Under the pieces are notes generated by a model, which saw only the letters and a list, made by a program, of their open reading frames with translations, had not been told where the DNA came from and did no database searches. Below, piece by piece: positions 837-40,500 of a DNA stretch of 64,000 nt. The DNA is from Tetradesmus obliquus. Its lineage: Eukaryota > Chlorophyta > Chlorophyceae > Sphaeropleales > Scenedesmaceae. Every line of letters starts with the position of its first letter. Positions within the stretch are counted from its first letter, which is position 1. The stretch is taken from assembly GCA_030272155.1 (NCBI GenBank), contig CP126196.1, positions 5,146,501 through 5,210,500 of the forward strand. Reading direction: 5' to 3'. Both the position numbers and the translations under genes were made by a program.

Positions 837-2551
837 AATAAACGCGGCGGTTGCTGGTCACCCGTATGCCGGTAGATGTGAATGCCTGTTCACTGTAGGG
901 TTTGTTCCAGGACCTGGGATCCCGGTGCTGCTTCAAATCAGACTCTCAACTGCAAGAAAACCGAATGCATTGAGTACTGTCATGGCTTAAGGATGGTTTA
1001 TCTGCCCCTCTGCACGCTTGCAAAACAAGCTGGCCTTGCATGTCGGGGATGTGTACAGATGTCCTGCTGGGGATGCAGCCTGGTCAGGGAGGTGAATAGA
1101 CATGATGCTGAAACACAGTTACAACCACACATGCCCAAGCAATCCTTGACTCTACACACTGCTTAAACACACACACATTGCAAACGCTTCACAATGTCCC
1201 CGCCAGGCTGCGCCTCCACAACGCTGTGCTCACACTGATATGACTCACTGATGACATATCATCGCAATGCAGCACGCCATCGTATCAAGAAACAATCCAA
1301 GGTCAACCACACCCACATTACGGATCTCAGCGACAGCAGGGTTGGCCTTTCTGGGTGGCATACCCGCACAAGCGTCAACCTTCAGCAACCACCATGCTGC
1401 ACCTATGTGCCTCTGCAGCATGCATGCTTCTACATAAACACTGGGCAACCCAGGCAGCAAGACATGCTGCACGGCCCTAGCGAGAATGAGCACGGCCCTA
1501 GCGACAGATCAAAGGGCTGCTGTGGTCAGCCAGTTAACTTATGGCCCACTGGTAACAAAACAGGCAGCTCAAGGGACTGCTGCTGGCTGTCACAACCTGT
1601 GGCTGTGTACTTGCACAGCACTGGCCCGACCGCAATTCAAACTTGCCCAGCTATGACGCAGCATAGCAATAAACAAGCAATGATGTACCACAACAAATTG
1701 ATGGTACCATGGATGTTAGTGCAGCACGCTGTTTAATCCTCCGCGGGTATGCTGAGCAACAGACGGTGCCACACATGGTGATGAACGAGAGCTTGCTTTG
1801 ATGTACACATGCATAGCCATCCCTGCTGCTAAGTGCTGACATCAGCTACGCTGCGCTGCAGATGACACTGGCCCGGCCGCAGCTGCAAACAAGCCAGCAT
1901 CAGCAACAGCCGCCGCAAGTGCAGCTACTTGCAGCAACATGTGCTCAATACTGCCGCCGATTCCCTTCACGCGGGTGCAGCAGATGCTGCTGCTGCAGCT
2001 ATCGCTCCATGCTGCCGCTGCCCACGCCGCTGGCACTGAGGCCGCTGGTGTCCAGCAGGCTGCAGACGTTGCACACGCTCAGGCTTGCCACAGTCGGATG
2101 CTGCAGAAGCTGCAGCAGGCGGCCTGCTCGTGCAGCCATCCCTGCTGCCTTCTGCTGAACCCAAAAGGCACACTCGCTAAAATGCGCTGCATACGACGCT
2201 GGCACTGCCGCAGCTGCAGGCACGTCAGCACACAGCAGCAGCCGCAGCTACAGCAGCTGGTGCGTGGCCCTGCTGCTGGCCTTGTGCCACCTGCTAGGAT
2301 GCTGCTGTTGCGGCCACAGTACTACCGCTCTATATGCTGCCGCTGCCCGTGCCCGTGGAGCTGAGGCCGCTGCCGCTGGTGTCCAGCAGGCTGCCCCTGC
2401 CCTGCTGCTGCACTCGTGCCACCTGCTAGGGCGCAGCTGCTGCTGTCAGATGGCTACCGCTCAATGCTGCCGCTGCTGGTGAGGCCGCTGCTGCTGATCC
2501 ATCAAGCTGCCCCTGCCCTGCTGCTCGACCGCAGCTGCCACCGCCCCCGTG
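837..2551. other. Intergenic, CTG-rich, with copies of the neighbouring exon end
   Basis: No supported gene lies here. Bases 837-1850 are ordinary mixed sequence. From about 1860 to 2551 the plus strand is dominated by CTG/GCTGCC repeats and carries at least two extra copies (near 2034 and 2364) of the segment at about 2580-2615, which is the 3' end of the mTERF-like gene on the minus strand. The repeats therefore look like tandem duplications of that gene's terminal exon spread into its 3' flank. Short open frames through the stretch are repeat translations. Confidence 0.5.
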
Positions 2552-3617
2552 CTACCGCTCTATGCTGCCGCTGCTGGTGAGGCCGCTGCCGCTGGTGTCC
2601 AGCAGGCTGCAGAAGTTGCAGAAAGCGTTGGTTCCCTCGTGCAGCTTCTTCACCACTGGGATGCCTGGCATGATGGCTGCCAGCTTGGCCAGGGCAGGGC
2701 GGATGGTGCCTGCCATGTCTGGCAGCAGCAGCAGGCTGGGCTTCTGGTACAGCAGCTCAGGGATGTTTGCCTCTGGCATGAGCAGCTTGAGCTGCAGCAC
2801 ACGGCAGGCTACCTGCAGGGGTGCAGGTGTTGGCAGAGAAATAACAGTCAGTTGCAAGCAAGCAGGCTAATGATACAGTGGTGCGATGAAGGCAGCATTA
2901 GGGCAGGGGCAGCAGCAGCAGCAGTCTTGGGTTTCATGGTAGGGAGCGGGATGTGTTGCTGTGTAAATGGTAGCGCCTTGGGAGTCTCTGCTGGAAGCGG
3001 CATATGCATGCTTCTAACATGTGTGCAGAAGCTGCAGGTCACCTGTGCAATCTCTGATATTGGCAACAGCAAGCCCAACTGTATAACACATTATCAACTG
3101 CGTTAATCTCCCTCCCAGTGGCCTGTGTGCCAGCTGCACCTGCCATACTGACACCAAGCTGTCCATGCCCTGCTGCCCTGCTGCTGCAGCAGCCCACCTC
3201 TTCTGGTGACAAGCTTAACAAGCCAGGGTGCCTTTTCAGCATCTGCAGCGTCCGGAAAGTCGAGCCAGTTGCCAGCAAGTCTGAGAGCTCCAGCGCATGC
3301 AGCATGAGGTCTCCTACGCCACTGCAGCTGCTGGGCAGGCTGCCAGCTGCTGCTAAATAAGTGTATGCTAGCCGGGCCTCTTGAGCTACGAGCGCTGCAT
3401 CTTTGTCTAGCCCGTGCTGCTGCACTAGTAACGAGATGGCTGCATCTGCTACATGTGTGCTATGGCTGCTTGAGGCTTGCTCCTGCTGGGAATGAGGGGC
3501 AGTGGCAGCCGCTGCACGGACACAGATAGCAGGCCTAGGTCTCTGGGTGTGCGCTGGGCTGCAGCAGGGCTGGGTGCGGTGGAGGAATGATGGTTGCTGC
3601 AGATAGAGCAGCTTCAT
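2552..3617 (-). CDS. mTERF-like helical-repeat organelle protein, two exons
   Basis: Exon 1 (3198-3617) ends in a donor after LSPEE, and exon 2 (2552-2812) resumes in the same phase with VACRVLQLKLLMPEAN and runs to TAG. The start chosen (ATG 3615-3617) gives about 38 residues rich in Ser, Arg, Pro and Gln ending VRAAAA, like an algal chloroplast or mitochondrial transit peptide; a longer in-frame start exists at 3806. Protein about 225 aa. The body contains the mTERF-style pattern of a helix followed by HPGLLSLSPEE, then a second helix and KPSLLLLPD, the recurring Pro-Leu-Leu signature of mTERF helical repeats. In that family the proteins bind organellar nucleic acid, but only one to two repeats are visible here, so the assignment is tentative. 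It lies head-to-head with the sulfurtransferase gene. Confidence 0.45.
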
Positions 3618-4209
3618 GAAAGGGAGCTGTGCCAGAGGAGAGGTTGCAGTGTGCAGTGAGTGCTGCAGGAGCAGTAGGGTTTCAGCAAAAGGGCAAGCTG
3701 AGCGGATATAGCTCTGAGGGTTGTGATTATGGTATGGACTATTATGCGAGGTGTGGGAGAGGAACGCACCACACCCGGAACTGTCACGAGACCGAGCTTT
3801 TGTCACCAGCTCAAACTACAGCGCCCTTGTAGCTGCAGACCCACGATCTCAGCTAAGTACAATCGTTCTTATTGCATATAAAGCAGTGAATACATCAGGC
3901 CGTTCGAATGCAGAGGGTAGCAGTCCAGGCACAGTTCCGAGCACGCAAGGTGCTGTTGCAACCGGCAGCAAGGGTCATTGGTACTTGGAAACATTGACAA
4001 TAACGTATATGAACTGCTTGTAATCGTGCAGGCTGTCTGGCACGGCACTAGAATAGCTCTGCTCAGCAGGTACTGCCCCTGCAGCATGCCACACACCCGG
4101 CTTGTGTCTGGTCGTAGTACACACTAATAGCACAGCTCTCCTGCTGCTGGATCTGATTAAACACAATGTTTGGGTAACGTGCAGGAGGAGGGCAGTCAGC
4201 TGTGCAGCC
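3618..4209. promoter_or_regulatory. Divergent intergenic region between the mTERF-like and sulfurtransferase genes
   Basis: About 590 bases separate the two chosen start codons, which point away from each other, so both promoters are expected here. The mTERF-like leader may occupy up to 3806. I see no clear TATA box or conserved motif, and an upstream transit-peptide exon of the sulfurtransferase cannot be excluded in the right half. Confidence 0.35.
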
Positions 4210-7200
4210 ATGATCACACACGAGGCGCTCCCGGCAGTTGTGACAGTTGACTGGCTGAAGGACAGGTGGGCCTGCTGCTTGTAGTGCAGTGAGCTAGGCA
4301 GCACACCCGCAGTCTGCAAATGGTCTCGCAGTGTATTTATCTTTTGCGTCTTGAGCTCAGTATGACCAACGCTCAGTATGATTTGGTGCTGATCTTGAGC
4401 TCGATTTGAGCGGTGCTTGATACTTATCTGGCAGCAGCGCACACAGCATCCTGCTCATTGCTTGAGGCAGTTGTGGCAGCACAGGTGCAGCAAGGTCAGC
4501 CTACCTGCACTGCAGCACATCCCTGCACGCAATGCCTGCAAGCCTTTCTCCTGCAAGAGGAGCAAAGGTGTGCGCTGTGGAAGCTGCTGCACTGTGTGTC
4601 CTGCTGTGATGTGTGCTGCTGTGCTGTGTGTGATGTGCTGCGAAATGTGTCTGCTGCTGTGCGACTTGTGCTGCTGTGCGCTGTGTTCCTGCTGCAGGCT
4701 GGGTCAGGTGAAGCTGCTGGACACCAGCTGGTACCTGCCTCCAATGGGTGCGTCACCAGCACGTGAACTCATGAGACAGACTATCAGAGACAATTGTCAC
4801 AACCTTTCAGCCAGAATGATGGTGGTGTGTCGTCAGCATGTGATGGTTTGAAAGATGGTTATGCAGACAGCACAATGGTGGTGTGGCGTCACCCGCTCTC
4901 CTAGGTGTTGTGCAGGGCACATGCCTCTGCAGCCTGTTTGGAGACGCACACCACGCACACCATCACAGGACCATGCACTGCCTGCTAACAGCGCTGCCGC
5001 CGCCGCTGCTGCTGCTGCTGCTGCTGCACTGCAGGCAGGGACGCAAAGAATGAGTTTGCAGCTGCCCGCATCCCCGGGGCGCAGTTCTGGGACATCGACG
5101 GTGTCGCTGATCCTGCAACAGACCTGCCCCACATGCTGCCGAGCGAAGCTGCTTTTGCGGCAGCAGCAGATGCTTTAGGCATTGGCAATGAAGATGCTGT
5201 GGTGGTGTATGACGGCATGGGCATGTTTGCTGCGCCGCGCGCGTGGTGGACATGGCGCGTGTTTGGGCACAGCAGGTGGGTGCCGGTGAGCAACGGGGGC
5301 TGAAGGGTTGAGGCGTTACATGGTATGAGCACAGCATATGCTGCAGGAGAATAGGTGTGCAATGCTGTGCGTGGTCCGGCAGAGCAGGTGGATCAGGGTG
5401 GCGCAGGTGCCCTGACGCCTCTGGCTGCCCTTGGTCCAGGAATGATTATGGCTAGGTGGAGAGATGCTGCGCAATGGACTGAGGTTCTGCTTGGTGATCG
5501 TCCGTTTCAAAACAGTTTCACCGCAGTTTGCAACGTGGCTTCAGCAAGGCTGCTAGCTTGCACAGCTGTGGATGACTGCGCAGATGCCTGGCTTACATGC
5601 TGCGCTGGCAGTTTCAGCAGCAACCTCAGTGTGCCGCGCATGCAAACCATACGACCATGCGGCTGCTATGCTGCTGCGTGTGCTGCAGGGTGGCGGTGCT
5701 GGAGGGGGGCCTGCCTGCATGGAAGGCAGCAGGGCTAGAGCTGCTGTTTTGACCTGCTGTTGATGACCAGCTGGCTGCTGTGCTGCTGCTATAGACCATC
5801 TGTGTGTGCTGCTGTGCCTGCTGCAGGGTGGCTGTGCTGCTGTCAACCAGCTGGCTGCGCTGCTGTTGTTAACCATCTGTGCATTGTGCTGTGTGTGCTG
5901 CAGGGTAGCGAGGCTAGAGGGTGACCTGCCTGCCTGAATGGCAGCAGGCCCGGCACTGCTGTTCGACCTGCTGCTGTTGACCAGCTGGCTGCTGTGCTGC
6001 TGTTGTTGACCATCTGCGCATGCTGCAGGGTGGCTGTGTTGGAGGGGGGCCTGCCTGCATGGAAGGCAGCAGGCCTGGAGCTAGATGAGTCAGCGGCAGG
6101 CAGCGAGGCGCTCACTGCAGCGACAGCAGCGGCATGCGCAGCCAGCAGCAGCGGCAGCAGCAAGTACAAGGCCAAGTTGATGAGGGACAAGGTGCGCTGC
6201 ATGTGCTGCGCTGGTGTGAGGTTGCACATGTTATGATGTCGCATGCCCCTGAGGTTGCACTCTTGTGTCTACGTGAGAGGCCGGAAAGGGCAAGAGGCAG
6301 GACTGTGCAGCACCACAGCCGTAGTCAACAATGCAACGGCCTGAGTAGCCGGGAATTGACGCCGTCTCTAAACCATGTTATGTTTGTCACAGCCAAGCCA
6401 CCTTCCTGCTTGTTTGTCGTCTGACCACTATCCACAGCATAATGTGTGGCATGTCAATAAGCCGTCCATGTTGCCGCTGCTGCTGTGCAGGTGCTTTCGC
6501 TGCATGACATGCAGCAGCTGGTGCAGCCAGCAGCGGCAGCAGTGGCAGCAGGGCAGGCGCCACCCGCCCTGCAGCGGCAGGTGATGCGGTTGCAGCAATG
6601 CAAATGGAATGTGCAGCTGTATCAGCTGCGTCCTAATGCCATTTTTTGGCATTTGTGCTGCTCTGTTGTGTGATGACGAATGGATTGCAGCGCCATGTGC
6701 ATGCCTTTTGCGCAAAGCCCTTGCGCTGCGTATAGATACCCCTCATTTGTAACACACAGCATATGCCTGTTCATGCTGCCCCTGTATTCTTTCATGCTGT
6801 CTTTGCAGGCGGTGGATTCGCGCTTCATCTAGACGTCGTTTTCAGCACAACGCATATGCCCACAATGCACCTGTTCATGCTGCCCCTGTGTGTTATGCAG
6901 GTGGTGGATGCGCGCTCTGCAGGCAGGTTGCACGGGATTGAGCCGGAGCTCTTGCACAACTGCTGCTCTTGCACTGCTCCCAAGCGTCCTTTTCCAGCAG
7001 GGGCCATCCGTCATGCTGCCGCTGTGTGTTATGCAGGTGGTGGATGCGCGCTGCGTCTAGACGTCGTTTCCAACACACGGCATCTGCCCACAATGCACCC
7101 TGTTCATGCTGCCCCTGTGTGATATGCAGGTGGTGGATGCGCGCTCTGCAGGCAGGTTTGCTGGCCTTGAGCCGGAGCGCTTTCACAACTGCTGCTCTTG

Positions 7201-8813
7201 CACTGCTCGCAAGCGTCCTTTTCGAGCAGGGGCCGTGCGTCATGCTGCCGCTGTGTGCTTGCAGGTGGTGGATGCGCGCTCTGCAGGCAGGTTTGCGGGG
7301 CTTGAGCCGGAGCCCCGCCCCGGGCTGCCATCAGGCCACATGCCAGGCTCCAAGAACCTGCCCTTCACTCAGGTGGGACGCTGCCCTTCACTCAGGTGGG
7401 ACGCTGCCCTTCACTCAGGTGGGACGCTGCCCTTCACTCAGGTGGGACGCTGCCCTTCACTCAGGTGGGACGCTGCCCTTCACTCAGGTGGGACGCTGCC
7501 CTTCACTCAGGTGGGACGCTGCCCTTCACTCAGGTGGGACGCTGCACCAGAATGAGAAGACCAGAATGAGTTAGGCAGTCCCCCTGCAAAGCAGCGAGCT
7601 GCTGTTGATCTGCTGCTGCTGTTGCTGCTGCTGCCAGCAAAAGTGTGGTGTGTGACATGCTGTGGTGTGCGGCCACATGCCCGGCTCCAAGAACCTGCCT
7701 TTCACTCAGGTGGGCTGTTCAAGGCTGCAGCCGTGAACCCGCAGGCCCCAAGCACCGCGAAAGACTCTGCTGATGCTGCTGCCATCGTTGCTGTGCTATG
7801 CACGCCTTGTCACAAGCATCTGCATGCATTGCTACTACACGGCTCGCCCGCTTTCTCACAACCCTGCAAACCCCACAATCTGGGTGCACTTTTCCTGCAG
7901 GTGTACGAGGGTGGTGTGATGCAGGGCGGCCGCCTGCAGCCGGTTGACCAACTGGAGGCGCTGTTCCAGACTGCAGGCGTGGACCCGCAGGCCCCTCTGG
8001 TGGCCAGCTGCGGCAGCGGGCTCACCGCATGCGTGCTGGCACTGGCACTGCACCAGGTGCGTTGAGAGTTGAAGAAGTGATAAAGTTTGATGCGCGCAGG
8101 CTAGCAGCATATCTTACTGTAGGCGGCAGCGGGTCACTGCATGCGTGCTGGCGCTGGCGCTGCACCAGGTGAGTTGAGAGTTTGAGAAGTGATGAAGTTT
8201 GTCGTGCGCAGGCTAGCAGCAAATCTTACTGTAGGCGGCAGCGGGCTCACTGCGTGCGTGCTGGCGTTGGCACTGCACCAGGTGCGTTGAAAATTTGATA
8301 ATATGATAGACTTGAATGTGCGCAGACTAGCAGCATCCTTCTGTTGGTGGCAGCGGCCTCACCGCCTGCGTGCTGGCGCTGGCGCTGCACCAGGTGCGCT
8401 GAAATTTTGATAATATGATAGACTTGAATGTGCGCAGACTAGCAGCATCCTTCTGTTGGTGGCAGCGGCCTCACCGCCTGCGTGCTGGCGCTGGCGCTGC
8501 ACCAGGTGCGCTGAAAGTTTAAGACGTGATAAAGTTACATGCGCGCAGGCTAGCAGCATATCTTACTGTAGGCGGCAGCGGGCTCACCGCATGCGTGCTG
8601 GCGCTGGCGCTGCACCTGGTGCGCTTACAGCGTGGCTACCCGGATGCAGGCATTCGGGCTAGCAACGGCTCCTACTCACGGCATGCAGGCAGGACAGCAA
8701 CACGTTCTTTGTGCGTGCGTGATGGTGCCTTTCATGACGGCATCTCTCCAAGGCTGTGACCAACAGGCCTGTTCAGCCTTCACAACATAGCGGCAGCTGC
8801 ATTGCGGCAAGTT

Positions 8814-8862
<49 letters not shown>

Positions 8863-9158
8863 TGGCAGCGCTTCCCCCTGCACGCTGACTTGCTGGAAGC
8901 ATGCAGCGATGTGTCAGACAGCGCCACGCTCAGCAGGCTGCTGTGTGCTGCTTGTGCTACCGTACATGGTTTCATTTGCCTGGCTGCACCAGTACAAGGA
9001 GAAGTTGTTGACAATGAGCCAGCGCCACGGTGCTGCGTGTTGCTGTGCTGCTGCTGCAGGTCACCGGCCAGCTTGTGCCTGTGTATGACGGCAGCTGGAG
9101 CGAGTGGGCAGCAACGCCTGGCGCAGCCATACAGAAGGAGGAGCCGGCAGCGCAGTAG
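4210..9158 (+). CDS. STR1: Mercaptopyruvate/thiosulfate sulfurtransferase (tandem rhodanese), 8 exons
   Basis: Exons: 4210-4265, 4698-4747, 5035-5275, 6029-6191, 6491-6580, 7265-7372, 7901-8056, 9060-9158. They sum to 963 nt, giving 320 aa with every phase conserved. The N-terminal rhodanese domain shows VTVDWLKDR, VKLLDTSWYLP, ARIPGAQFWDIDGVADP, LPHMLPSE, VVVYDGMGMFAAPR and VAVLEGGLPAWKAAG. The C-terminal domain shows VVDARSAGRF, SGHMPGSKNLPFTQ, the catalytic loop SCGSGLTAC (Cys about residue 273) and VPVYDGSWSEWA. The CGSGLT loop is the type associated with 3-mercaptopyruvate sulfurtransferases, which move sulfane sulfur to cyanide or thiols in cysteine catabolism. The ATG at 4210 gives no transit peptide, so an upstream exon may exist. 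Exons 4, 6, 7 and 8 are each surrounded by degenerate edge copies; the chosen copies alone keep phase and full homology. Confidence 0.92.
5689..6028 (+). repeat. Degenerate copies of the acceptor side of sulfurtransferase exon 4
   Basis: Starts resembling exon 4 (GGTGGC..GTGCTGGAGGG) follow a CAG acceptor at 5689, 5827 and 5904 before the true exon at 6029. The first copy keeps GGLPAWKAAG and then breaks; the others decay sooner. Spacing is roughly 80-140 bp, and intervening sequence is CTG-rich. Confidence 0.75.
6809..7264 (+). repeat. Four upstream copies of the start of sulfurtransferase exon 6
   Basis: Acceptor-like TGCAG followed by the first codons of exon 6 (GTGGTGGATGCGCGC) occurs at 6809, 6901, 7037 and 7130, before the functional copy at 7265. 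Copies at 6901 and 7130 keep VVDARSAGRF plus a few codons; those at 6809 and 7037 break at an in-frame TAG. All lie between exon 5 (ends 6580) and exon 6. Confidence 0.8.
7358..7541 (+). repeat. 23-bp minisatellite spanning the exon 6 splice donor, 8 copies
   Basis: Eight perfect head-to-tail copies of a 23-bp unit (ctgcccttcactcag plus gtgggacg) run from 7358 to 7541. The first copy is the real end of exon 6 (LPFTQ) with its GT donor at 7373-7374, so each repeat contains a candidate donor. A further degenerate copy of the exon end lies near 7676-7710. Confidence 0.95.
8057..8625 (+). repeat. Five degenerate copies of the end of sulfurtransferase exon 7
   Basis: The last 40-45 bases of exon 7 (encoding GSGLTACVLALALHQ) plus its donor gtgcg recur about every 110 bp after the true end at 8056. 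Copies end near 8168, 8280, 8394, 8505 and 8620. The last copy has lost the donor (CACCTG instead of CACCAG). No copy keeps the upstream part of the exon. Confidence 0.85.
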
Positions 9159-9299
9159 CAACTGGCAGGAAGTTGAGGCATCATGCATGTGATCTAAACT
9201 GCAAAGACAATGTTGGAAGGATGCGCATGATGCGTTGCAGCTGCAGGTGCTGCCCTGGGCAACGTGTTGTGTCGTCGAATTGCGGCCGTGTTGTGGTGT

Positions 9300-9719
9300 G
9301 TGCATGGCATTCTTGTGGATGCCCTGGCCAGCTTGTGCCTGTGTATGACGGCAGCTGGAGCGAGTGGGCAGCCACGCCTTGCGCGGCCATACTGAAGGAG
9401 GAGCCGGCAGCGGAGTAGCAACTGGCAGGAAGTTGAGGCATCACGCATGTGATCTGAACTGCATAAACACTGCTGGAAGAATTCGCATGATGCGTTGCAG
9501 CTGCAGGTGCTGCCCTGGGCAACGTGTTGCATCGTCTAATGTGGCCGCGCTGTGGTGTAAAAAGACGAATTCTAGACAAAGGTGTGTGCATGGCATTCTT
9601 GCGGATGCCCTGGCCAGCTTGTGCCTGTGTATGACGGCAGCTAGAGCGAGTGGGCGGCAACACCTGGCGCAGCCATACTGACTCAGTGTCCTTCGGAAGG
9701 ATCAGCCGGCAGGGCGGTA
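9300..9719 (+). repeat. Two downstream copies of the sulfurtransferase terminal exon
   Basis: After the true last exon (9060-9158) a near-complete copy lies at about 9325-9418, including LVPVYDGSWSEWA and a TAG. A third, more decayed copy lies from about 9614 and carries TAG in place of the Trp codon. Spacing is about 265-290 bp. The copies lack the CTG-CAG acceptor of the real exon, so they probably sit in 3' UTR. Confidence 0.8.
9556..9560 (+). terminator. Candidate polyadenylation signal TGTAA for the sulfurtransferase gene
   Basis: TGTAA is the established green-algal polyadenylation signal. This is a plausible match about 400 bases after the stop codon. The motif is short, so the call is weak without transcript data. 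Confidence 0.3.
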
Positions 9720-12892: not shown

Positions 12893-12923
<31 letters not shown>

Positions 12924-19050: not shown

Positions 19051-19086
<36 letters not shown>

Positions 19087-23117: not shown

Positions 23118-23141
23118 GCAGTGGGCGCAGCAGCAGTGGGC

Positions 23142-23185
<44 letters not shown>

Positions 23186-26794: not shown

Positions 26795-26797
26795 ATC

Positions 26798-28210: not shown

Positions 28211-28244
<34 letters not shown>

Positions 28245-28766: not shown

Positions 28767-28807
<41 letters not shown>

Positions 28808-28886
28808 GCTGCTGCTGCCAGGTACATTGCGCAGCTGGAGCGTGAGGAGCTGTCCCGCAGCCGCTGCCTGACTCTCACCTCACTCT

Positions 28887-28918
<32 letters not shown>

Positions 28919-28996
28919 GCTGCTGCTGCCAGGTACATTGCGCAGCTGGAGCGTGAGGAGCTGTCCCGCAGCCGCTTCCTGACTCTCACCTCACTC

Positions 28997-29029
<33 letters not shown>

Positions 29030-29992: not shown

Positions 29993-30024
<32 letters not shown>

Positions 30025-30721: not shown

Positions 30722-30770
<49 letters not shown>

Positions 30771-33700
30771 TGCCGGGTGAGAAGCTGAGCAGCAGCCTGC
30801 AACGCTACAGCAAGGCCAGCAGCAAAGAGGCAGCGGAGTATGCGCAGGGGCAGGCGCGGCTGCAGGGCTATGCTGCTGTGAAGAGCTTGCGGGCGGCCTC
30901 ACGCAAGGCGGCCAAGGCGGCTCTGGTGAGGGGGCTGTGCGGGGGGCTGCTGTGCTGCTGTGCTGACTAGGCTTGCGTGCACTTGGTGGCAGCACCTCTC
31001 AACAGAATGATGGCTGAAGCGAGTTATAGTTCATTTCCTATGCTTGTCTATGGTAGATTCGGGGGCGTAGCGGGGCCACCGTTGGGCTGGATGTTGTGCT
31101 GGATGGGCAGGGCTATGCTGCTGTGAAGAGCTTGCGGGCAGCCTTGCGCAAAGCGGCCAAGGCGGCTCTGGTGAGGGAGGCTGCGCTGGCAGCTGTGCTG
31201 CTGTAACACGATGAACTTATACGCAGTGAATGCTGGCTGCTGTATTGCTGAAGGGGCGCTTATGTTGCTGCTGTCAGCACCAGCTGATCTCTATGCAACA
31301 TGTGTCCCTGCAGGCCGATGTGTATCATGACCAAGATGCGCGCACCAAGGACTTGCTGCTGTGCTTACTGCGCTTACTGCGCTTGCTGCTGCTGCTGCAT
31401 CCAGGCCGATGTGCATTGGGACCAGGAGGCGCGCATCAAGGTCTTGCTGCTGTGCTTACTGGCCTTGCTGCTGCTGCTGCTGCTGCTGCTGCATGCAGGC
31501 CGATGTGCATTGGGACCAGGAAGCACGCATCAAGGTTGGTGCAGCGCTGCTGGCACTGCTGGTAGAGAATAGCTCCCTACCCTCAGGCCTACCTGGCACC
31601 AAAGCCAAACCTTGGACAGGCAGCAAGCCCACCAAACTATCAGCAGCAGGAAGCAGCAGCAGCAGCAGCGCCGGCGCCGGCGATGTGGCTGCATTCGAGT
31701 ACGTGTATGTGAAGAGCGGCCTGAAGCAGCAGTCGTTTGTGAGGGCGAGCCAGGCGCTGGTGGCGGTGCTGCTGGCTGATCGGGGGCTGGCAGCACACCT
31801 GCTTACTAAGGTGCCGCCTATGCTGGTGCCGCCGCTGCCCTGGACGGGGTACAACAGCGGGGGCTACCTCACCAGCAGGTGCGGTGTGATTGCACACTTT
31901 GTATTAGCGGCTAGGGGGCTGGGTGTGTTTGCCTGAAGAGCAGCATGTGGCACCCGTACTTCTGCGCCCGTGCTTATGCTTGTTGAGTGTCAACGCACGA
32001 TGTGTTGTGGCAAGCTCTTTTCTGCACGTGCATGCCGCCGCCTGCTGCTGCAGGCACTGGAGTTTGCGCACGCGGTTCAGCCCGGCGCTGCTTGTCTACT
32101 TTGATGTTGTGCTACCCGCGCGTTGATGCTGACCTGTTTCTTTGTGTGCGCTGCTGCGTTGCAGGCACTGGATCATGCGCACGCGCTTCAGCCCTGCGCT
32201 GCAGCGGGAGCTGCGGGACGGCATGAAGGATGGCCGCTACAGCCAGGTGCGCAGCAGCAGCAGCAGCAGCCAGTACATTCTTCTGGTGAACATGTGTGAT
32301 CACCGCCGGTGTTGCATGCACACACGCAGATTGCTGGCCAGGCTGCAGAGTAGCAGCGCCTAATCCCCTCAAGGGTTCTGTCAAAACTCTCGTGTTTGTG
32401 CGAGAGAGGTCAGTTACAGGGGTGGGCAAGCTATCACCCTAGAGTGAGTCACTTTTCCCTCTTTCAATTCACATATCGTGAGAACCCGATAGCAAGCCAC
32501 AAGATGCAACCAAAGTAAAACTCCAGAGGTTGGTGCGAGAGAGGTCTGTTACAGGGGTGGGCAAGCTATCACCCTAGAGTGAGTCACTGAATTGCAAAGG
32601 CAGAGTGTTCTGCGACTGGCTAAAGCTGCAGACGTACAGTTCAAATAGCTCTCTTGTTGGTGCGCAGAAGAGGGGTTACGCGGTGTGCACAGGCAACTAC
32701 GTTGCAACGAACACCCGAAAACACAGGAAAACTGCAGGAAGCTCAGCACAGACCGTCACTCATGTGAGGCCCAACCCCAGAGAAATGGCCCCCGTGTGTA
32801 AGTTTCGGCATATGGCCATGCTAGCACAGCCGCCTTCCTTACTCCGTTGTTGGTGCGCACTGCATACTCCTGCAGGTGCTGGACGCGCTCAACGTGCTGG
32901 GCAACACCTCTTGGCGCATCAATCGCCGCGTGTACGAGACCATGGCCGCGCACTGGGCCGCGCGCAGCACCGCGGGCGGCCTGCCGCAGCAGACGCCGGT
33001 TCGAACCCCGCCGCCGCCGCCCACCGCGTACCGGCTGGTTTTTGAGGGCGGCGGGCTGGCGGCGCGCAGCGGCGGCTGGAGCCGGCTGGAGCGGCGCGGG
33101 CACGTGCTGGCCTGTGATGATGTGCGGCGGCTCAACCGCAACATGGCTAGCCTCAAGGCAGACTTTCTGCTGAAGCTGCGGGTGAGGATTCTAGGTGCAT
33201 GTTTCGTTGTCATGTTCTGTATGATACCCAGCCAGTGTGGCCTGCGCTGATGTGCGGCGACTGAACCGCAACATGGCCACCCTTAAGGCCGACTTTCTGC
33301 TGAAGCTGCGGGTGAGGGTTTTATGTTCATGGTTTAGGTGCATGTTACAATGGTAACAAGCCGATGTGGCCTGCGCTGATGTGCGGCGGCTGAACCGCAA
33401 CATGGCCACCCTCAAGGCCGACGTTCTGCTGAAGCTGCGGGTGAGGGTTTTATGTTCATGGTTTAGGTGCATGTTACAATGGTAACAAGCCGATGTGGCC
33501 TGCGATGACGTGCGGCGGCTGAACCGCAACATGGCCACCCTCAAGGCCGACTTTCTGCTGAAGCTGCGGGTGAGGGTTTTATGTTCATGGTTTAGGTGCA
33601 TGTTACAATGGTAACAAGCCGATGTGGCCTGCGATGACGTGCGGCGGCTGAACCGCAACATGGCCAGCCTCAAGGCCGACTTCCTGCTGAAGCTGCGGGA

Positions 33701-35289
33701 AGGATTCATTTTGCACATGCATCCTGTGGTGAAGGAGGAGAGGATGAAGCTCATGTTTCCTGCACAGGCAGGAGTCGTGGCCTCAGGTTGCTGCGCAGGG
33801 CAGCTGCAAGTTTGCTGGTGATGTACCCGTTGCTGGCGTCTTTGTGTTCGTCGCGCAGGTGCCGGAGGAGTTGTTGACGCGCCCGAGTCCTTTCAACCTA
33901 CACACCGCCGCACCTGTTGGCCTTCTGCTTATTTGGATAAATTAGTAGTAGTTATGTGTCTCTGTGTAAGTGCTGCGTGCAGGTGGCTGAGGAGTATGTG
34001 GACGCCCCTGAGTTCTACTACCCCCACACAACGCCGCTCCTTCTCAGCCTGTTGCTCATCAAATCATCACGTGCTTGTTTTGTGCAGGTGGCTGAGGAGT
34101 ATGTTGACGCGCCTGAGTTCTACTACCCCCACACGCTGGACTTCCGCGGGCGCGCCTACCCACTGCACCCCAGCCTGCACCACCTGGGGGACGACAGCTG
34201 CAGAGGGCTGCTGCTCTTCGCGCAGGGAGTGCCCCTGGGCGCTGAGGTGAGGCTGGCTGGTTGCTGGCTGTTGACTTGAAATTGCCTGAGTTGCGACAGC
34301 TGCAGGGGGCTGCTGCTGTTTGCGCAGGGCGTGCCGCTAGGGCCCGAGGTGAGCGCAAAGCGTTGGCAATTTATGTGTGTGCTTCCTTGTCCGTAGCATA
34401 CATTCTGCCCTGCGTGCTCAACAGCAGATTGCACCCATTGTGGCGCTGGGGCCCGAGGTGAGCCCAATGCGAGTTGTCTGAGCAGGCAAGAGCTGGCTTC
34501 GGCAGTTGCTGATTGTGATAGCTTTGTGTGAGCAATGGCTGGAGGGGCAGGGGGCGGCTTGTGCAACTGGCGTGCTGCTGCGTGAGGACACATTCTCCTG
34601 TGTGTGCATCATCATCAGTAGCGTGTGTGCTGCCCTGCCTTCTCAACAGCAGCCTGTGCCTGTTGTGCTGACGTTGCTCCTGCTGCTGCTGCTGCTGCTG
34701 CGTGCAGGGCCTGGACTGGTTGTACGTGCACCTGGCCAACGTGTGGGGGCAGGGCCAGGACAAGCTGCACTACGACGGCCGCAAGTGAGGCCCGGCTGTA
34801 TTTAAGGACAAAACTATTGATTATATTTTCATGGCTACTGCACCACGCACTGAAGACTTTGATGTGTTTGCTGGGCCCAGCTGCCACATGTATTGGCAGC
34901 AGCCGTGTCGGAGCATGCATTGCCTGCTGCTGTGCTGTGGCCGGAAGCAGTGTCAGATCGTACGTGCGTGCCTGCTGCTGTGCTGTGGCCTTAAGCAGCG
35001 TCAGATCGTGCGTGCGTTCCTGCTGCTGTGCTGTGCTGTGGCCAAGAGCAGTGTCAGATCGTGCGTGCATTCCTGCTGCTGTGCTGTGGCCATCATCACT
35101 GGGGCATTGGCTGCTGCCCCGCCAACAGCAGGAACTGCCCGCATTCACCTACACCAGCAGCTGTATCTGCCATGTGCCACTGCAGCTCCGCTGACAAACG
35201 CATCAATTGATTGGCTCGCAAACGCATGCATTTGTCGGCTCGCCTATGCATCCAATCCTTGGTCAGCACCTGTTCATGCCAGTTGGACT

Positions 35290-35358
<69 letters not shown>

Positions 35359-37771
35359 TGCAGGGCGTTTGTGCGCGCCAACCTGCCCAACGTGCTGTCA
35401 GCAGCAGCGGACCCCATGCGCTGCACCTGGTGGCAGCAGGCGGAGAAGCCGTGGCAGGCGCTGGCTGCATGCTGCGAGATTGCGGGAGCACTCACGGTAA
35501 GGGGCTTGGCGGCGGGGCGGGGCCAGCAATGGCAGCTGGCAGATTTGCTACCTGGCTGTCGCACTGACGCCCAGTTTAGGCTGCCACTCAGCAACCTTAT
35601 GGCGGGGCTGAGGCGGGGCAGGGCGGCCTCTGTCAAGCACCAGCACTGGCACTGCCTCTCCACAACATGTCAAGCTTGTCACCCAATGCGCTGCTGCACA
35701 ATATTCCTGCCCCCACCCTGCAACCCTGCGCAGAGCATCGACCCTGCCTGCTCAGCTGTGAGCTGCCTGCCGGTGCACACCTTCCGCTTGCTGAGTGTCT
35801 CCTGTTGTGAAAGCTGAACATGCGCCTTACAAAAATGCCCCCCCCCCCCCCCGGCGCAGAGCATGGACCCGGTTAGCTACGTGAGCTGCCTGCCGGTGCA
35901 CTCTTCACATGCTCTTGTGATCCTGCTGTGAATGACACAACGGACACATAGCATCCCGCCCACTTTGCTGATGCCCATTCATCCTGCACTGCTCCCACAT
36001 GCGCAGAGCATGGACCCTGCCAGCTACGTGAGCTGCCTGCCGGTGCACATGGACGGCAGCTGCAACGGCCTGCAGCACTACGCGGCGCTGGGGCGGGACG
36101 AGGCAGGCGGCCGCGCCGTCAACCTGCTGCCAAGCAACAGCCCGCAGGACGTGTACAAGGTGGGCGCGTAACACCTGTGTTTGTTTGCTGGGTATCTTAC
36201 TTGCGAATGTTTTGGCGAAGGCTCTGCTGCTGCTGCTGTGTGTGTGTGTATGCTGCCAGGCAAACACGCACGGCTCCCTGCTTTGGCGCTTGTGCCTGCA
36301 GCCCTGACCGTGCCGCTACGCTGCTCCTGCCGTGCCTGTGCAGGGCGTAGCAGCCATCGTATCGCGCCGCGTGGCAGCAGACGCAGCAGCAGGCGTGATC
36401 GAGGCGCAGCGCAGCGCTGCACTCATAGACCGCAAGCTCGTCAAGCAGACTGTTATGACGAGTGTATATGGCGTCACACGCGTCGGTGCGCGTGCTCAGA
36501 TCGAGAACCGGCTCAAAGAGCGCCGCACAGACATGAAGCAGAAAGCAGCGCTGCTTGCGCAGCACGGCAGCAACAGCAGCAGCGGCAGCAGCAGCGATGC
36601 AGGCTTGCTGATTGCTGCTGGCGGCGCGGCAGCTGCTGCAGCTGCTGCTGCTGGCGGTGGCGGTGGCGGTGGCGCTGCGGCTGGCGGTGTGGGTGTGGTA
36701 GCTCCCGGCATGCGTGATGAGTACAGCTGGATGGACGACAAGGATGTGGTGTGGCAGGTGGGTGGTGTTGATGTTATTGATGATGAAAAGATGATGATGT
36801 TCGAATAACACAGGGATGACAACAGTGATGACGCGTACAGCTGGAAAACAAGGATGTGGTGTGGCAGGTGGGTGGTGAGGATGAAAAGGAACATACAATT
36901 TGCGCTGTTATAGGATGATGCCAAGTATGATGACGAGGACCATGATGAGTACAGCTGGATGGATGACAAGGACGTAGTGTGGCAGGTGGGTGGTGAGGAT
37001 GTTTTATTGATGATGAAAGCACCTTGATAAGGATGGTGACAAGGGTTCTGACAAGGATCTTGACGGGCGCAGCTGCATGGACAACAAAGATGTGGTGTGG
37101 CAGGTGGCTGGTGAGGGTACCAAGGACGATGATGAAAATGATGAACAGGATGATGATGTTGTGGTGTGGCAGAAGCTCATCTATCTGCTGAGCTGTCATT
37201 GCCCTCCTGCAGGTGTCCATGCACCTGGCAGATCCTACAGAGGACGGCATCAGCATTGCTCTTGAAGATGTTTGGCAGTACTCACTACCTCTCGTTGTCC
37301 TGGTTGTGTGGCAGCACTCACTACCTCTCGTTGTCCTGGTTGTCGCTGCGCCCGTAGCCCTGCAAGGATAAGCTTTGTATGTTTTCATGGCTGCTCGCCC
37401 CGCAGGTGTCCAAGTACCTGGCAGACTTGACGCGGGACGCCATCCGGGAGATGCTTGGCAGCGCGCGAGCCATCGTGGCCTGGCTGGCCGACAGCGCCTG
37501 CAACCCTGCAGTAACTCAATCATATTTGTTTGCTGTTATGCAACTCACAGGTGTCCAAATACCTGGCAGACCTAACCCTAGACGCCATCGGCGAGATGTT
37601 TGGCAGCGCGCGCGCCATCATGGCCTGGCTGGCAGACTGTGCGCGCGTGGTGGCATCCGCCAATGCGCCTGTGGCGTGGAGCAGCCCGCTGGGCCTGCCT
37701 ATCCTGCAGCCCTACCACAAGCTCAGCCTGACAAGCATACAGACGGCCACGCAGTCTTTTGCCGTGAGTGC

Positions 37772-37826
<55 letters not shown>

Positions 37827-39706
37827 CAGCAGCAGCGGTCGTTGGAGGGAGGTAGTGGGCTGAGTGTGCTGCTGCGCAGCTGGTGTGCAGCCACGCAGTG
37901 TTTTGCAGTGAGTGCGCAGCGGCAGCAGCAGCAGCAGCACAGGGGCCAGGTGAGCTGGGGGTCAGGAGTGTGTGTACGCTGGCTGGGCCAGCTAGGCGTT
38001 GCTGCAGCCTGTTTTGTATTAATTGTAACACTTGGTTTTGAAAAATACCGAGAAATAAAGTAGAAAGCGGTGTTCAATGCCCAGTGGCGTGGAGCAGCCC
38101 GCTGGGCCTGCCTATTCTGCAGCCCTACCACAAGCTCAGCCTGACAAGCATCCAGACGGCCACGCAGTCCTTTGCGGTGAGTGCGCAGGACAGCAGCAGC
38201 AGCGGCAGCAGCGGCAGCAGCAGCAGCGGCAGCAGCGGCAGCAGCAGCAGCAGCAGGGGCGCGGGAAGTGGAGGGGGGTTGTGGGCTGAGTGTGCTGCTG
38301 CTCAGCTGGTGTGCAGCCACGGAGTCCTTCGCGGTGAGTGCGCAGCAGCAGCAGCAGCAGCAGCAGGGGCAGCGGGAAGTGGAGGGGGATAGTGGGCTGA
38401 GTGTGCTGCTGCTCAGCTGGTGTGCAGCCACGGAGTGTTGGGGGGGGGGGGGCTGCCAGTCTCACCCAGCAGCTGCGCCTCCACACACTGCTTGCATGCC
38501 CCTGAGCTGCAGCCAGCTGCTGCTGCTGCTGCTGCTGCTACTGCTGCCGCAGGTGGTGTCTCCCGACTCGCCTGACAGCTGCCAGTGGCTCAAGTCGCGG
38601 CAGCGCAGCGCCTTCCCGCCCAACTTCATCCACAGCATAGACAGCACACACATGATGATGACCGCGCTGGCCTGCAGGTGCGTGTGGTTCATGTCATGTC
38701 TCTGGCCAGCAGCAGGTGTGCCTTGGGTGCATCAAGCCTTGCAATGTGTGGCCTTCATCCACAGCATCGACAGCACGCACATGATGGTGACCGCGCTGGC
38801 CTGCAGGTGCGGCGCAGTCAGCTGCGACGTGAGAACAGCTGTCGCAGCCGTAACAACAGCCGTCACAGCGGTGACAACATGCGGCTGGCGTGCTGTGACT
38901 CGGCCTGCATGTGCATGCTACAAAGTGCGGCTGTGTTCTGCGCATGCTGTGCACCAGGTGCAGGTGGCATCTCTTTTCCTGGCGTGCTCACAGGCGCCCG
39001 TGCTGTCTGTTGTCGCTTGTTCACTGGCATTACTTTTGCCTTGTTGTGCTGTGCAGTGAGGCCGGCATCTCCTTTGCCGCGGCCACCAGCTTGCTCACCT
39101 TGCCATTTGCTTTATTTAATAACATCATTTGCTGCTTGTTGTGCCCTGCAGTGAGGCCGGCATCTCCTTTGCTGGCGTGCATGACAGCTTCTGGACGCAC
39201 GCCGGCCACGTGCCAGCTATGAACAGGCTGCTGAGAGCCAAGTTTGTGGAGCTACATGCGCGGGAGGTGAGGCTGCTGTGTGTGAGGTCTTTAGAAACGT
39301 TGTTACTGGTGCTATTGCTTGCCTTGCTCTGCTGGTAATCATTGTATCGCCTGTCTCCTGCTTCTTTGCCTGCCTGTGGCTTCTTTGCCTGCCTGTGGCT
39401 TCTTTGCCTGCCTGTGGCCTCGTCTGGCTGCAGCAGCTGCTGTGCTGTGTGGGTGGCACCGTCATCACCTTGGCCTGCTTGCCCCGCTGTGTTCACGGCT
39501 GCTACACGCAACACCCCTGCCTGCCCGCCTGCCTGCCTGCCTACTGTTCTATTTGTGGTTGTGGCCTGCTGCCGCAGCCCGACCTGCTGCAGGACCTGCT
39601 GCGGCAGCTGCAGCAGCAGCACCCGGGGCTGCAGTTCCCGCCCATCCCTGAGCGGGGCAGCCTGGCGGTGGCAAAGGTTAAGCAGAGCAGGTACTTCTTC
39701 AGCTGA
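27770..39706 (+). CDS. RPOT: Phage-type (single-subunit) organellar DNA-directed RNA polymerase, 16 exons
   Basis: Exons: 27770-28392, 29044-29227, 29875-29986, 30432-30925, 31499-31878, 32165-32246, 32876-33181, 34088-34246, 34708-34784, 35364-35496, 36007-36159, 36344-36757, 37551-37763, 38553-38677, 39152-39266, 39578-39706. They total 3699 nt, 1232 aa, with phase kept throughout. The N-terminus ([20 protein letters not shown]) looks like a mitochondrial or dual targeting peptide. T7/Rpo41 motifs are present: [11 protein letters not shown]; motif A with catalytic Asp in [20 protein letters not shown] (about D866); motif B K-x7-YG in [17 protein letters not shown] (about K935-G944); [29 protein letters not shown]; motif [12 protein letters not shown] (about D1163); and a family-typical C-terminal aromatic end RYFFS. 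It transcribes mitochondrial and/or plastid DNA. Oddities: a CAG-encoded polyQ near residue 410 and an 80-residue low-complexity insert after motif B. Many introns carry exon-edge copies. Confidence 0.95.
28765..29043 (+). repeat. Two upstream copies of the polymerase exon 2 acceptor and start
   Basis: A unit of about 111 bp, (CTG)n CCGCTGCTGCCAG followed by GTACATTGCGCAGCTGGAGC and the block ending SRSR, occurs at 28820 and 28932 and again at the chosen exon (29044). After SRSR the first two copies run into intron-like ctgactctcacctcactc. The whole triplet remains open in one frame. Confidence 0.9.
30296..30340 (+). repeat. Upstream copy of polymerase exon 4 start
   Basis: gctgcagcggtgctgtcgcg and the following CATTGCC at 30299-30328 duplicates the acceptor and first codons of exon 4 (30432), then diverges. 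The tgtgtgtgcctgctt block before each acceptor is also shared. Confidence 0.75.
31300..31498 (+). repeat. Two upstream copies of polymerase exon 5 start
   Basis: CTGCAG followed by GCCGATGTG and codons for (W/H)DQ(E/D)ARIK occurs at about 31313 and 31403 before the real exon at 31499, with CTG-rich spacers. The second copy is nearly identical to the real one ([12 protein letters not shown]). Confidence 0.85.
32398..32587 (+). repeat. 55-bp direct repeat within polymerase intron 6
   Basis: Bases 32398-32452 and 32533-32587 match at 54 of 55 positions (gtgcgagagaggtc..ttacaggggtgggcaag to agagtgagtcac), 135 bp apart. The surrounding 500 bases lack CTG repeats, so this may be a separate insertion into the intron. 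Confidence 0.85.
33182..33710 (+). repeat. 129-bp tandem array copying the end of polymerase exon 7
   Basis: After the true donor at 33182, four further copies of the exon end ([11 protein letters not shown](T/S)[10 protein letters not shown]) with gtgagg donors follow. The last three repeat with an exact 129-bp period (gatgtggcctgcg at 33363, 33492, 33621). The final copy lacks the donor. The unit also includes gtttaggtgcatgttacaat intron sequence, and none has a clear acceptor. Confidence 0.92.
33960..34087 (+). repeat. Upstream copy of polymerase exon 8 start
   Basis: gtgcag followed by codons [16 protein letters not shown] occurs at about 33984-34031 and then again at the true exon (34088), about 105 bp apart. 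A more degenerate copy (gcaggtgccggaggag) starts at 33858. Confidence 0.8.
35838..35925 (+). repeat. Upstream copies of polymerase exon 11 start and a 15-C run
   Basis: A homopolymer of 15 C spans 35838-35852. It is followed by a copy of the exon 11 start (gcgcagAGCATGGACCC, YVSCLPVH) at about 35854-35905; another copy lies at about 35729-35782. The functional exon is at 36007. Confidence 0.75.
36758..37115 (+). repeat. Copies of the polymerase exon 12 end
   Basis: The last codons of exon 12 ([12 protein letters not shown]) with donor gtgggtggtg recur at about 36834, 36949 and 37068, roughly 115 bp apart, with gatgatgaaaa-type spacers. Confidence 0.85.
37404..37512 (+). repeat. Second, probably unused copy of polymerase exon 13 start
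   Basis: ccgcag followed by codons [20 protein letters not shown] and [11 protein letters not shown] runs from about 37406 to 37500 and then diverges. The downstream copy at 37551 continues into the conserved region, so the upstream copy may be a mutually exclusive alternative exon only if spliced out of frame; it looks like a relic. Confidence 0.7.
38083..38420 (+). repeat. Copies of the polymerase exon 13 end in intron 13
   Basis: A near-identical copy of the last 95 bases of exon 13 ([20 protein letters not shown] to QSFA) with its gtgagtgcgcag donor lies at 38083-38187. Shorter CAG-rich fragments follow at about 38330-38360 and 38400-38435. Confidence 0.85.
38740..39160 (+). repeat. Copies of exon 14 end and exon 15 start in polymerase intron 14
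   Basis: [18 protein letters not shown] with donor is repeated at 38752-38806. The exon 15 start (tgcagTGAGGCCGGCATCTCC) occurs at about 39053-39077 before the real one at 39147. Both edges of one intron are thus duplicated. Confidence 0.85.
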
Positions 39707-39830
39707 GGCGCTGCAACACAGCAAGTGCATGCTTGGTGGAGGTGCTGCAGCGCAGCAGGTGCCCCTTCAGCTGAGCAACAGGCAAACTGCAGTGCAGCAG
39801 CTGCCTCTTCAGCTGAGCAAGCAGATGCCA

Positions 39831-40500
39831 AGGTGAAGCAGAGCAGGTACTTCTTCAGCTGAGGCAGCAGCACAGCAAGTGCCTGTTTGGCTGAGGCGCT
39901 GCAGTGCAGCCAGTACTTGTTCAGCTGAGCAAGCAGTCGCCAAGGTGAAGCAGAGCAGGTTCTTCTTCAGCTGAGCAAGCAGCGCAGCAAGTGCCTGTTT
40001 GGCTGAGGCGCTGCAGTGCAGCCAGCACTTGTTCAGCTGAGCAAGCAGATGCCAAGGTGAAGCAGAGCAGGTACTTCTTCAGCTGAGGCAGCAGCACAGC
40101 AAGTGCCTGTTTGGCTGAGGCGCTGCAGTGCAGCCAGTACTTGTTCAGCTGAGCAAGCAGTCGCCAAGGTGAAGCAGAGCAGGTTCTTCTTCAGCTGAGC
40201 AAGCAGCGCAGCAAGTGCCTGTTTGGCTGAGGCGCTGCAGTGCAGCCAGCACTTGTTCAGCTGAGCAAGCAGATGCCAAGGTGAAGCAGAGCAGGTACTT
40301 CTTCAGCTGAGGCAGCAGCACAGCAAGTGCCTGTTTGGCTGAGGCGCTGCAGTGCAGCCAGTACTTGTTCAGCTGAGCAAGCAGTCGCCAAGGTGAAGCA
40401 GAGCAGGTTCTTCTTCAGCTGAGGCAGCAGCACAGCAAGTGCCTGTTTGGCTGAGGCGCTGCAGTGGGCTGCCTGCTGTGCTGCTTGCAACAGCAGCAGG
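39831..40500 (+). repeat. 112-bp tandem array (224-bp higher-order unit) repeating the polymerase C-terminal codons and stop
   Basis: The block AAGGTGAAGCAGAGCAGGT.CTTCTTCAGCTGA, which encodes the last residues and stop of the polymerase, starts at 39831, 39943, 40055, 40167, 40279 and 40391, an exact 112-bp period. Odd and even copies alternate (tacttc with cagtcgcc, ttcttc with cagatgcc), giving a 224-bp higher-order unit. A first, diverged unit lies at 39676-39830. The array is downstream of the stop at 39704-39706, so it is presumably 3' UTR or flank. Confidence 0.95.

Follow-up and report, generated by a model that had tools for sequence, protein, structure and literature searches.

Direct copies of exon edges beside coding borders suggest an unusual mode of intron growth in Tetradesmus obliquus

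Exon borders in the Tetradesmus obliquus genome are accompanied by direct copies of themselves far more often than random duplication would give, which suggests an unusual mode of intron growth. The original prediction, that introns and 3' flanks carry copies of the adjoining exon edge together with its splice site or stop, described something real: repeat scans and alignments recovered such copies, and the observation holds outside the window too.

Results

We sampled 329 kb of the 104.7-Mb genome, comprising the window (the whole 64,000-nucleotide stretch presented above) and four further regions. Gene models came from our own ab initio HMM, which mislabels certain junctions (39690 and 51168) and whose noncoding labels are a mixture of introns, UTRs, and intergenic DNA. 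For each of 447 confident exon borders, a copy was called when a match scoring at least 18 lay on the intron side within 1 kb of its own exon edge, and the chance level was obtained from 2,235 mispairings. Own-edge copies were found at 61 of the 447 borders, with 0.4 expected from mispairing. A looser cut-off (score of at least 16) gave 70/447 against 1.4 expected, and a stricter exon set gave copies at 32 of 260. Edge queries found matches in 16 of 184 cases, compared with 3 of 184 for queries from the interior of the same exons. None of the 447 junctions had an inverted edge copy, and none had an edge copy 1.5 to 2.48 kb away. Matches on the other side of the same exon occurred at 15/447 junctions and fell to 3/207 in exons of at least 240 nt, so they mostly reflect queries that hold both edges.

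A single copy was present at 37 of the 61 junctions and two to six at the remaining 24, with rates of 19/74 in the window and 15/131, 24/158, 1/29, and 2/55 in the other regions. Donor sides (27/197) and acceptor sides (23/193) were about equally affected. Copies also accompanied 1 of 13 confident stop codons, plus the stops of the sulfurtransferase and RNA polymerase (RNAP) genes, and none of 6 start codons. Noncoding-only repeats of 85 to 155 bp formed at most 9 clusters from 3,551 queries, none of them intergenic away from edge copies. Borders held 41 of 50 against an expected share of 12.7%, a figure that uses limits taken from the same data.

Within the window, direct 24-mer repeats no more than 1 kb apart covered 15.1% of bases, compared with 0 in one order-4 Markov simulation. 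Eighteen of the 19 window junctions with a copy belong to the sulfurtransferase and RNAP genes, which constitute the strong evidence there; at junction 51168, the copy called lies 831 bp off with a score of 18.5 and is probably a false call. In the sulfurtransferase gene, on the plus strand throughout, acceptor-side copies lie upstream of exon 6029-6191 (5672..6082, with copies at 5681-5742 and 5917-5953 by alignment), and others with a period of 229 (and 93) were found at 6803..7313 by repeat scan and alignment. One donor-side array consists of 8.2 identical 23-bp units, each 15 nt of exon end plus GTGGGACG (7358..7545), and another repeats a 112-bp unit of 47 nt of exon end and 65 nt of intron (8010..8625). 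A terminal array repeats the last exon, stop, and 3' flank with a period of 260 (9066..9678); alignment placed a stop-edge copy at 9326-9430, and the repeat scan yielded one more.

Features of the RNAP gene likewise lie on the plus strand. Donor copies are found at d=129 (28356..28531), at d=245 from exon end 30925 (30862..31179), at 110, 228, and 346 bp from exon end 36757 (36713..37118), and at d=129 from exon end 38677 (38624..38811), and a donor array with a 129-bp unit runs four copies past exon end 33181 (33108..33707). On the acceptor side, copies precede exons 29875 (d=132; 29716..29892), 30432 (d=125; 30297..30451), and 34088 (d=105 and 229; 33855..34134), and exon 31499 has an array of period 91-94 (31309..31536). 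Acceptor and donor copies both occur about exon 38123-38308 (d=413 and 111; 37668..38439). Period-111 units in GCT-rich sequence (28776..29085) carry an HMM exon label and were assigned to an acceptor edge by eye. The terminal array holds six copies of a 112-bp unit with the last codons (KQSRYFFS) and stop (39671..40534); junction 39690, mislabelled by the HMM, is in fact this stop edge (translation ...KQSRYFFS-stop).

Six affected genes had been predicted, and evidence was weaker for the other four. In the mTERF-like gene (minus strand), repeat clusters copy the coding end and stop downstream (2038..2622), with two copies of "...GSIER-stop" read by eye. The WDR76-like gene (plus strand) has a 98-bp repeat across exon and intron labels, its edge placed by eye (12663..12832). 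In the bZIP gene (plus strand), a donor-edge copy of exon 18106-18195 lies at d=252 (18152..18709), and the exon of this pair (EGLTLEKADMLRQIQ / GLTLEKADMLRQIQ) is shorter than the length limit. Donor-side repeats of the MIX17/CHCH-like gene (plus strand; d=207; 23084..23321) lie in CAG-rich sequence with a weak edge match of 13 exon nt at 23097. Pfam matches to bZIP and CHCH fell below the cut-off, and neither the GT2-like exons nor the minus-strand ORF 3039-3815, the only ORF tested as mTERF, had a Pfam match. The GT2-like, P2, and single-exon-like genes had been described as free of copies, in agreement with a k=16 scan of 42-64 kb whose sole repeat was a 10-bp unit at 45436.

The duplicated unit comprises the last or first few dozen exon nucleotides, the splice site, and some 50 to 110 nt of adjoining intron, and the extra copy lies about 120 bp out in the intron. 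Spacing was 92 to 142 bp for 41 of 79 mapped copies and 214 to 285 bp for 18, and none of the 79 lay at 20 to 91 bp. The exon part measured 10 to 81 nt, and the intron part was at least 46 nt in all 41 units, against 36 to 40% shorter than this in simulation. The description of introns as "filled" was too strong, since the unit itself contains intron and many junctions have one diverged copy. Arrays with periods of 10 to 60 lay at edges in 10 of 143 cases, and those with periods of at least 60 in 13 of 18. Slippage, which had been proposed, does not account for the main 92- to 142-bp class. Two arrays of 21- to 23-bp units stand apart from that class, and both were swallowed by the gene finder; these, the 23-bp array at 7358-7545 and a 21-bp array on C11, could have arisen by donor-seeded slippage or unequal exchange.

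GT was kept in 41 of 43 mapped donor copies and AG in 34 of 36 acceptor copies; seven additional copies end 1 to 5 nt before the junction. Of 26 donor copies, 1 had AG precisely at its far end, 7 had it at offset -5, and 6 at +3, the last equally present in the authentic exon; of 23 acceptor copies, 1 had GT at its far end. As the far ends lack an exact AG or GT peak, we rejected the idea that copies are complete mini-exons. Exon ends frequently read CAG/GT, and AG ended 20 of 31 exons with copies and 122 of 196 without; recursive splicing at AG/GT was rejected on this lack of enrichment.

In 30 of 50 pairs, spacer similarity exceeded the 95% level of the controls, and this homology identifies the copies as tandem duplications of DNA. 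The 27 alignable spacers averaged 21.7% mismatch plus gaps. The other 20 of 50 no longer align above control, yet divergence in their exon parts is just 8.8%; exon-derived parts are better preserved than spacers and so remain recognisable longest. Most pairs are old and few arrays are young. Between each exon and the nearest copy per junction we counted 53, 38, and 141 differences at codon positions 1, 2, and 3 (823, 830, and 818 sites). Changes in the exon lineage numbered 1, 1, and 30 (324, 327, and 323 sites; 24 multi-copy junctions), and those in the copy lineage 36, 43, and 63 (814, 823, and 809 sites). The exon is protein-constrained, and the copies are drifting, with little to indicate coding selection on them and a mild third-position excess. 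Translation of the copies was rejected because in the 24 multi-copy junctions the third-position bias falls mainly on the authentic exon after lineage separation. AsnRS could be aligned to its homologue 6pqh with the two copies of its gene left out, showing that they form no part of that protein. Third-position differences were 0.17, against 0.07 to 0.09 in simulations with similar first- and second-position rates; decay is not fully neutral in the model, and from this and the unalignable spacers beside little-changed exon parts, the copies may be under mild constraint, may be refreshed, or may mutate at different rates. By reasoning, gene conversion from exon to copy would leave the codon-position ratio unaffected.

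Introns with a copy had a median length of 390 nt (n=19) and those without 265.5 nt (n=104; p=6e-4), a difference of about 125 nt. Possible ongoing intron growth had been predicted; growth is supported, and "ongoing" weakly so, given the age of most pairs.

Discussion

We consider it reasonably likely that local direct DNA duplication of splice-edge modules at coding borders lengthens introns, and that formation itself is border-concentrated. Units of 92 to 142 bp straddling a coding border are duplicated in direct orientation, and the intronic copy would be spliced out, leaving the protein unchanged and the intron about 120 nt longer. Formation near coding borders might involve, for example, staggered breaks or fill-in repair, with transcription, splicing, or nucleosomes favouring nicks at exon edges. 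Units leaving the authentic splice site too little of its own intron may be purged, which would give the 46-nt floor. More tentatively, at somewhat below even chances, a transcription- or splicing-coupled process would duplicate these modules in this lineage, and introns would extend from their own borders in steps of about 120 nt; since copies also occur at stop codons, a purely splicing-coupled cause leaves part of the pattern uncovered.

Duplications of 92 to 142 bp might instead fall anywhere, with exonic ones purged, intronic ones decaying, and border ones pinned by selection on the protein. Such survivor bias makes targeting unnecessary and accords with a constrained exon beside changing copies, with the greater decay of spacers, and with the age of most pairs; past about 0.2 substitutions per site, simulated edge units also stay visible longer. 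However, the simulated edge fraction was 0.27 to 0.32 with ungapped detection, whereas edges made up 52 of the 70 families observed at edges, in introns, and in intergenic DNA; a gapped search detects simulated noncoding-only and edge units equally well until divergence exceeds 0.16 substitutions per site, yet only nine noncoding-only clusters were seen; and the intron part never falls below 46 nt. The rarity of equal-sized noncoding-only repeats thus makes survivor bias insufficient alone, random duplications that simply age were insufficient in simulations, and we regard this explanation as unlikely. Less likely again is retention for function, with spare donors or acceptors regulating splicing or buffering it: every unit includes a complete splice-edge module, GT and AG are mostly kept, and exon-derived parts outlast spacers, but with the seven copies ending just short, true GT/AG retention may equal neutral decay, and changes on the copies favour third positions only mildly. 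Tandem duplication of an exonic AGGT proto-splice site, a known route to new introns named in the original prediction, is of the same mutation class and fits the frequent CAG/GT exon ends; it is nevertheless very improbable here, as copies lie within existing introns, AG ends are not enriched, and donors and acceptors are about equally affected. An assembly or haplotype artefact is just as improbable, given that several chromosomes and unrelated genes show the pattern and that the copies have diverged to varying degrees.

None of the titles and abstract openings found describes such border duplication, most subscription papers lying outside the search. For human genes, Zhuo et al. (2007) reportedly described introns that derive from tandem arrays, and a relation between such arrays and alternatively spliced introns. 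Intronic minisatellites are matched here by the 23-bp and 21-bp donor arrays only; unlike these and unlike short-unit (10-60 bp) slippage, the main class has 92- to 142-bp units that include exon. Mutually exclusive or cassette exons would carry an acceptor and a donor per copy and signs of coding selection; the far ends and codon-position counts of the copies show neither. As for introner-type dispersal, one array searched against the whole genome matched itself, a nearby partial copy, and another gene's donor array (70-73%). In the AGGT model (PMC3443670 and PMC2891723), introns are gained via tandem genomic duplication; in both cases a short stretch of genic DNA is duplicated locally in tandem and the added length is removed as intron, whereas the unit here spans an existing intron border, lengthens the intron, has no need of AGGT, and shows ~120-bp spacing. 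Fill-in repair of 3'-overhang breaks produces small tandem duplications at induced breaks in mammalian cells (PMC8355091) and offers a plausible origin for direct tandem duplications without long homology, although the available part of that account makes no connection to exon borders. Direct repeats near splice sites are also described in PMC11782384, but those are 4-30 bp long and match the 5' border of an intron with its 3' border, whereas the present copies place an exon edge in the intron next to it.

In this one genome, duplication is recurrent, size-limited, and concentrated at coding borders, affecting about 1 in 7 sampled junctions. Mobile elements or random insertion are the usual explanation for intron lengthening. 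How long introns arise in a compact algal genome becomes directly testable, and exon-border breakage may be a mutational hotspot. Gene finders may call edge copies as exons, and the duplicated splice sites could be a supply for alternative splicing.

Frequency of exon-edge copies

The 104.66-Mb genome comprises 17 contigs, and the window (G000:C6:5146501-5210500) has a GC content of 52-63% per 2-kb bin. Base composition, genome size, and gene content point to a chlorophycean green alga; published values for T. obliquus (PMC5966456) are 57% GC, 109 Mbp, and a mean intron length of 462 bp. We added 265 kb of sequence from other regions of the same genome, namely, 100 kb of C1, 100 kb of C3, and 50 kb of C9, all picked blind, and 15 kb of C11, picked since it matched a window array. 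The survey thus covered 329 kb, or 0.3% of the genome. A home-made gene finder (HMM), trained on the sequence itself, learned the splice signals CAG/GTGAG (donor) and CTGCAG/G (acceptor) and called 628 exons, of which 265 (at least 100 nt and log-odds >12) were confident and supplied 447 usable junctions. Each query, made of the terminal 120 nt at either exon end plus 12 nt of intron, was then aligned to the intron-side sequence lying 20-1000 nt out.

The original prediction, that introns are rich in copies of the adjoining exon edge, was borne out. At an alignment score of at least 18, copies were found at 61 of the 447 junctions versus 2 of 2,235 mispaired controls (70/447 versus 7/2,235 at a score of at least 16). 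In exons of at least 262 nt, edge queries matched at 16/184 junctions and interior queries at 3/184. Neither inverted copies nor same-side copies at 1.5-2.48 kb were detected at any of the 447 junctions, and a stricter exon set showed copies at 32/260. Per-region rates were 19/74 in the window and 15/131, 24/158, 1/29, and 2/55 elsewhere, so the window exceeds the average and the effect is uneven.

Genes carrying the copies

Tandem Repeats Finder (TRF) and a direct-repeat scan recovered the arrays reported in the window. Eighteen of its 19 copy-bearing junctions (score of at least 18; 74 tested) lie in the sulfurtransferase and RNA polymerase genes, so the strong evidence sits in these two; the remaining one, 51168, is probably false. 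The gene finder mislabelled some junctions, 39690 being in fact a stop edge. In the sulfurtransferase gene, one donor array (7358-7545) contains 8.2 perfect copies of 15 nt of exon end plus GTGGGACG, another (8010-8625) has a 112-bp unit made of 47 nt of exon end and 65 nt of intron, and a terminal array (9066-9678) repeats the last exon and its stop. The RNA polymerase gene, of the phage type (Pfam RNA_pol, E=1.2e-74), carries copies on the donor or acceptor sides of its introns (28-40 kb) and a 112-bp array repeating its C-terminal peptide. The other genes named in the original prediction are less clear: an edge copy was found in bZIP, beside an exon below the length limit of the confident set, and WDR76, MIX17, and the mTERF-like gene contain repeat clusters whose edge assignment was made by eye or from weak matches. 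Pfam also supported Rhodanese, WD40, and Ribosomal_60s among the window genes; the bZIP and CHCH matches were under their cut-offs, and Pfam gave no match for the GT2-like exons or the minus-strand ORF at 3039-3815.

Direct repeats are almost absent from 42001-64000, a third of the window, despite several predicted multi-exon genes there, indicating that susceptibility varies by gene. The window also contains a run of ∼24 GTCT tetranucleotides (46206-46302, 95% matches) and CAG/GCT triplet runs, common in exons and introns, with poly-Q, poly-A, or poly-S in the predicted proteins. A ∼60-bp repeat at 32394-32588 (d=135) is intron internal without an exon edge, one of few such cases.

In the other regions, a long 21-bp donor array (locus L007, C11:5162960-5163660; edge GGCTGCATGCTCAG/GTGGGAC), in what is presumably a DEAH-helicase-like gene, resembles the 23-bp window array, with which it shares the donor CTCAG/GTGGGACG. 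Further host genes include STT3, SNF2, SAD/SRA, and kinase genes. In the asparaginyl-tRNA synthetase gene (C3, reverse complement, 43004-45162), the gene finder called two edge copies as exons; once these are removed, the protein matches 6pqh and shows no insertion at the junction concerned. Edge copies may be miscalled as exons in the automatic annotation of this genome. For PDH E1alpha (C1), the alignment with 1ni4 runs across the copied acceptor edge, weaker support because the preceding exon had its predicted end trimmed beforehand. Introns with a copy had a median of 390 nt (n=19) versus 265.5 nt without (n=104, p=6e-4); three of the 19 were short (40, 93, and 173 nt), probably because the copy was called as exon.

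Anatomy of the duplicated unit

The junction was mapped in 79 of 98 copies, a set without the 23-bp array of the window and the 21-bp array of C11, both of which the gene finder had read through. By distance from the authentic junction, 0 of these copies lay at 20-91 bp, 41 at 92-142, 3 at 143-213, and 18 at 214-285. One copy was present at 37 of the 61 junctions and two to six at the other 24. Where the nearest copy lay within 88-150 bp (n=41; 22 donor side, 19 acceptor side), the exon part spans 10-81 nt and the remainder 46-114 nt. No remainder was below 46 nt on either side, versus 36-40% when units were placed randomly across the same junctions (Kolmogorov-Smirnov p 3e-7 to 4e-6). On reasoning, this floor could reflect the purging of units that part an authentic acceptor from its branch point, an explanation that fits the donor side less well.

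In 30 of 50 pairs, the spacers beside exon and copy aligned better than 95% of unrelated spacers did. Spacer mismatch averaged 21.7%, with 2.7 gaps per 60 nt, in the 27 pairs above the 99% level, versus 8.4% mismatch in the exon-derived part. In 20 pairs, spacer similarity was not above the control, yet the exon parts differed by only 8.8%. Spacer homology implies that, in most pairs, the copied piece is what remains of a tandem unit and not a dispersed insertion.

Divergence of exons and copies

Differences between exon and nearest copy at codon positions 1, 2, and 3 were 53/823, 38/830, and 141/818. At the 24 junctions with at least two copies, exon-only changes numbered 1/324, 1/327, and 30/323, changes on copies 36/814, 43/823, and 63/809, and copy-to-copy differences 59/764, 67/771, and 93/749. 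Protein selection thus acts on the authentic exon, and on the copies the third-position excess is only mild. Two observations speak against pure neutrality of the copies: third-position differences (0.17) are about double those of simulated neutral copies (0.07-0.09 at similar first- and second-position rates), and exon-derived parts outlast spacers. Candidate causes are a higher mutation rate at GC-rich third positions, mild constraint on the copies, and their refreshing. GT was retained in 41/43 and AG in 34/36 mapped copies; this is no proof of function, since seven additional copies end 1-5 nt short of the junction.

Survivor bias versus targeting to borders

Duplications might fall anywhere and stay visible at borders because protein selection pins one copy. 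We simulated 92-142-bp duplications placed at random, keeping the exon under purifying selection and letting all other sequence drift neutrally; ungapped detection gave an edge fraction of 0.27-0.32. Among the real families, 52 were at edges, 18 in introns, and 0 intergenic; several of the intron families pair two copies of an edge array, and 6 exon-exon families were excluded from the ratio. With a gapped search, simulated noncoding-only units were about as detectable as edge units up to 0.16 substitutions/site/copy and fell behind them beyond that (detection of 0.12 versus 0.32 at 0.2). A search with 3,551 noncoding queries gave 27 clusters, of which 18 lay close to edge copies and 9 did not, two of the nine resembling edge arrays by eye. 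As noncoding-only positions are 6.9 times the allowed junction positions, 12.7% of events are expected at junctions; 41/50 were observed (p=1e-28, or 8e-15 if noncoding-only units are just 0.36 as detectable), although the exact p values are unreliable because these very data also served to define which positions were allowed. TRF pointed the same way: among its arrays with a period of at least 60, 13/18 were labelled edge and four more were edge by inspection (39787, 28776, C3 26707, and C1 37162), versus 10/143 at periods of 10-60.

Altogether, splice-edge modules undergo size-limited direct duplication concentrated at coding borders, forming arrays at some junctions, and the duplicates decay while the exon stays constant. 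We infer that borders are either where duplications are directed to form or where selection retains them, and we lean toward targeted formation, as there is little to suggest that the copies are functional. Fill-in repair of staggered breaks, which can yield such duplications (PMC8355091), would be a candidate source. Stop codons were also copied (1/13 of the confident set, plus a further two in the window), which argues that what the copied sites share may be a coding border or some feature of transcription, and not the spliceosome.
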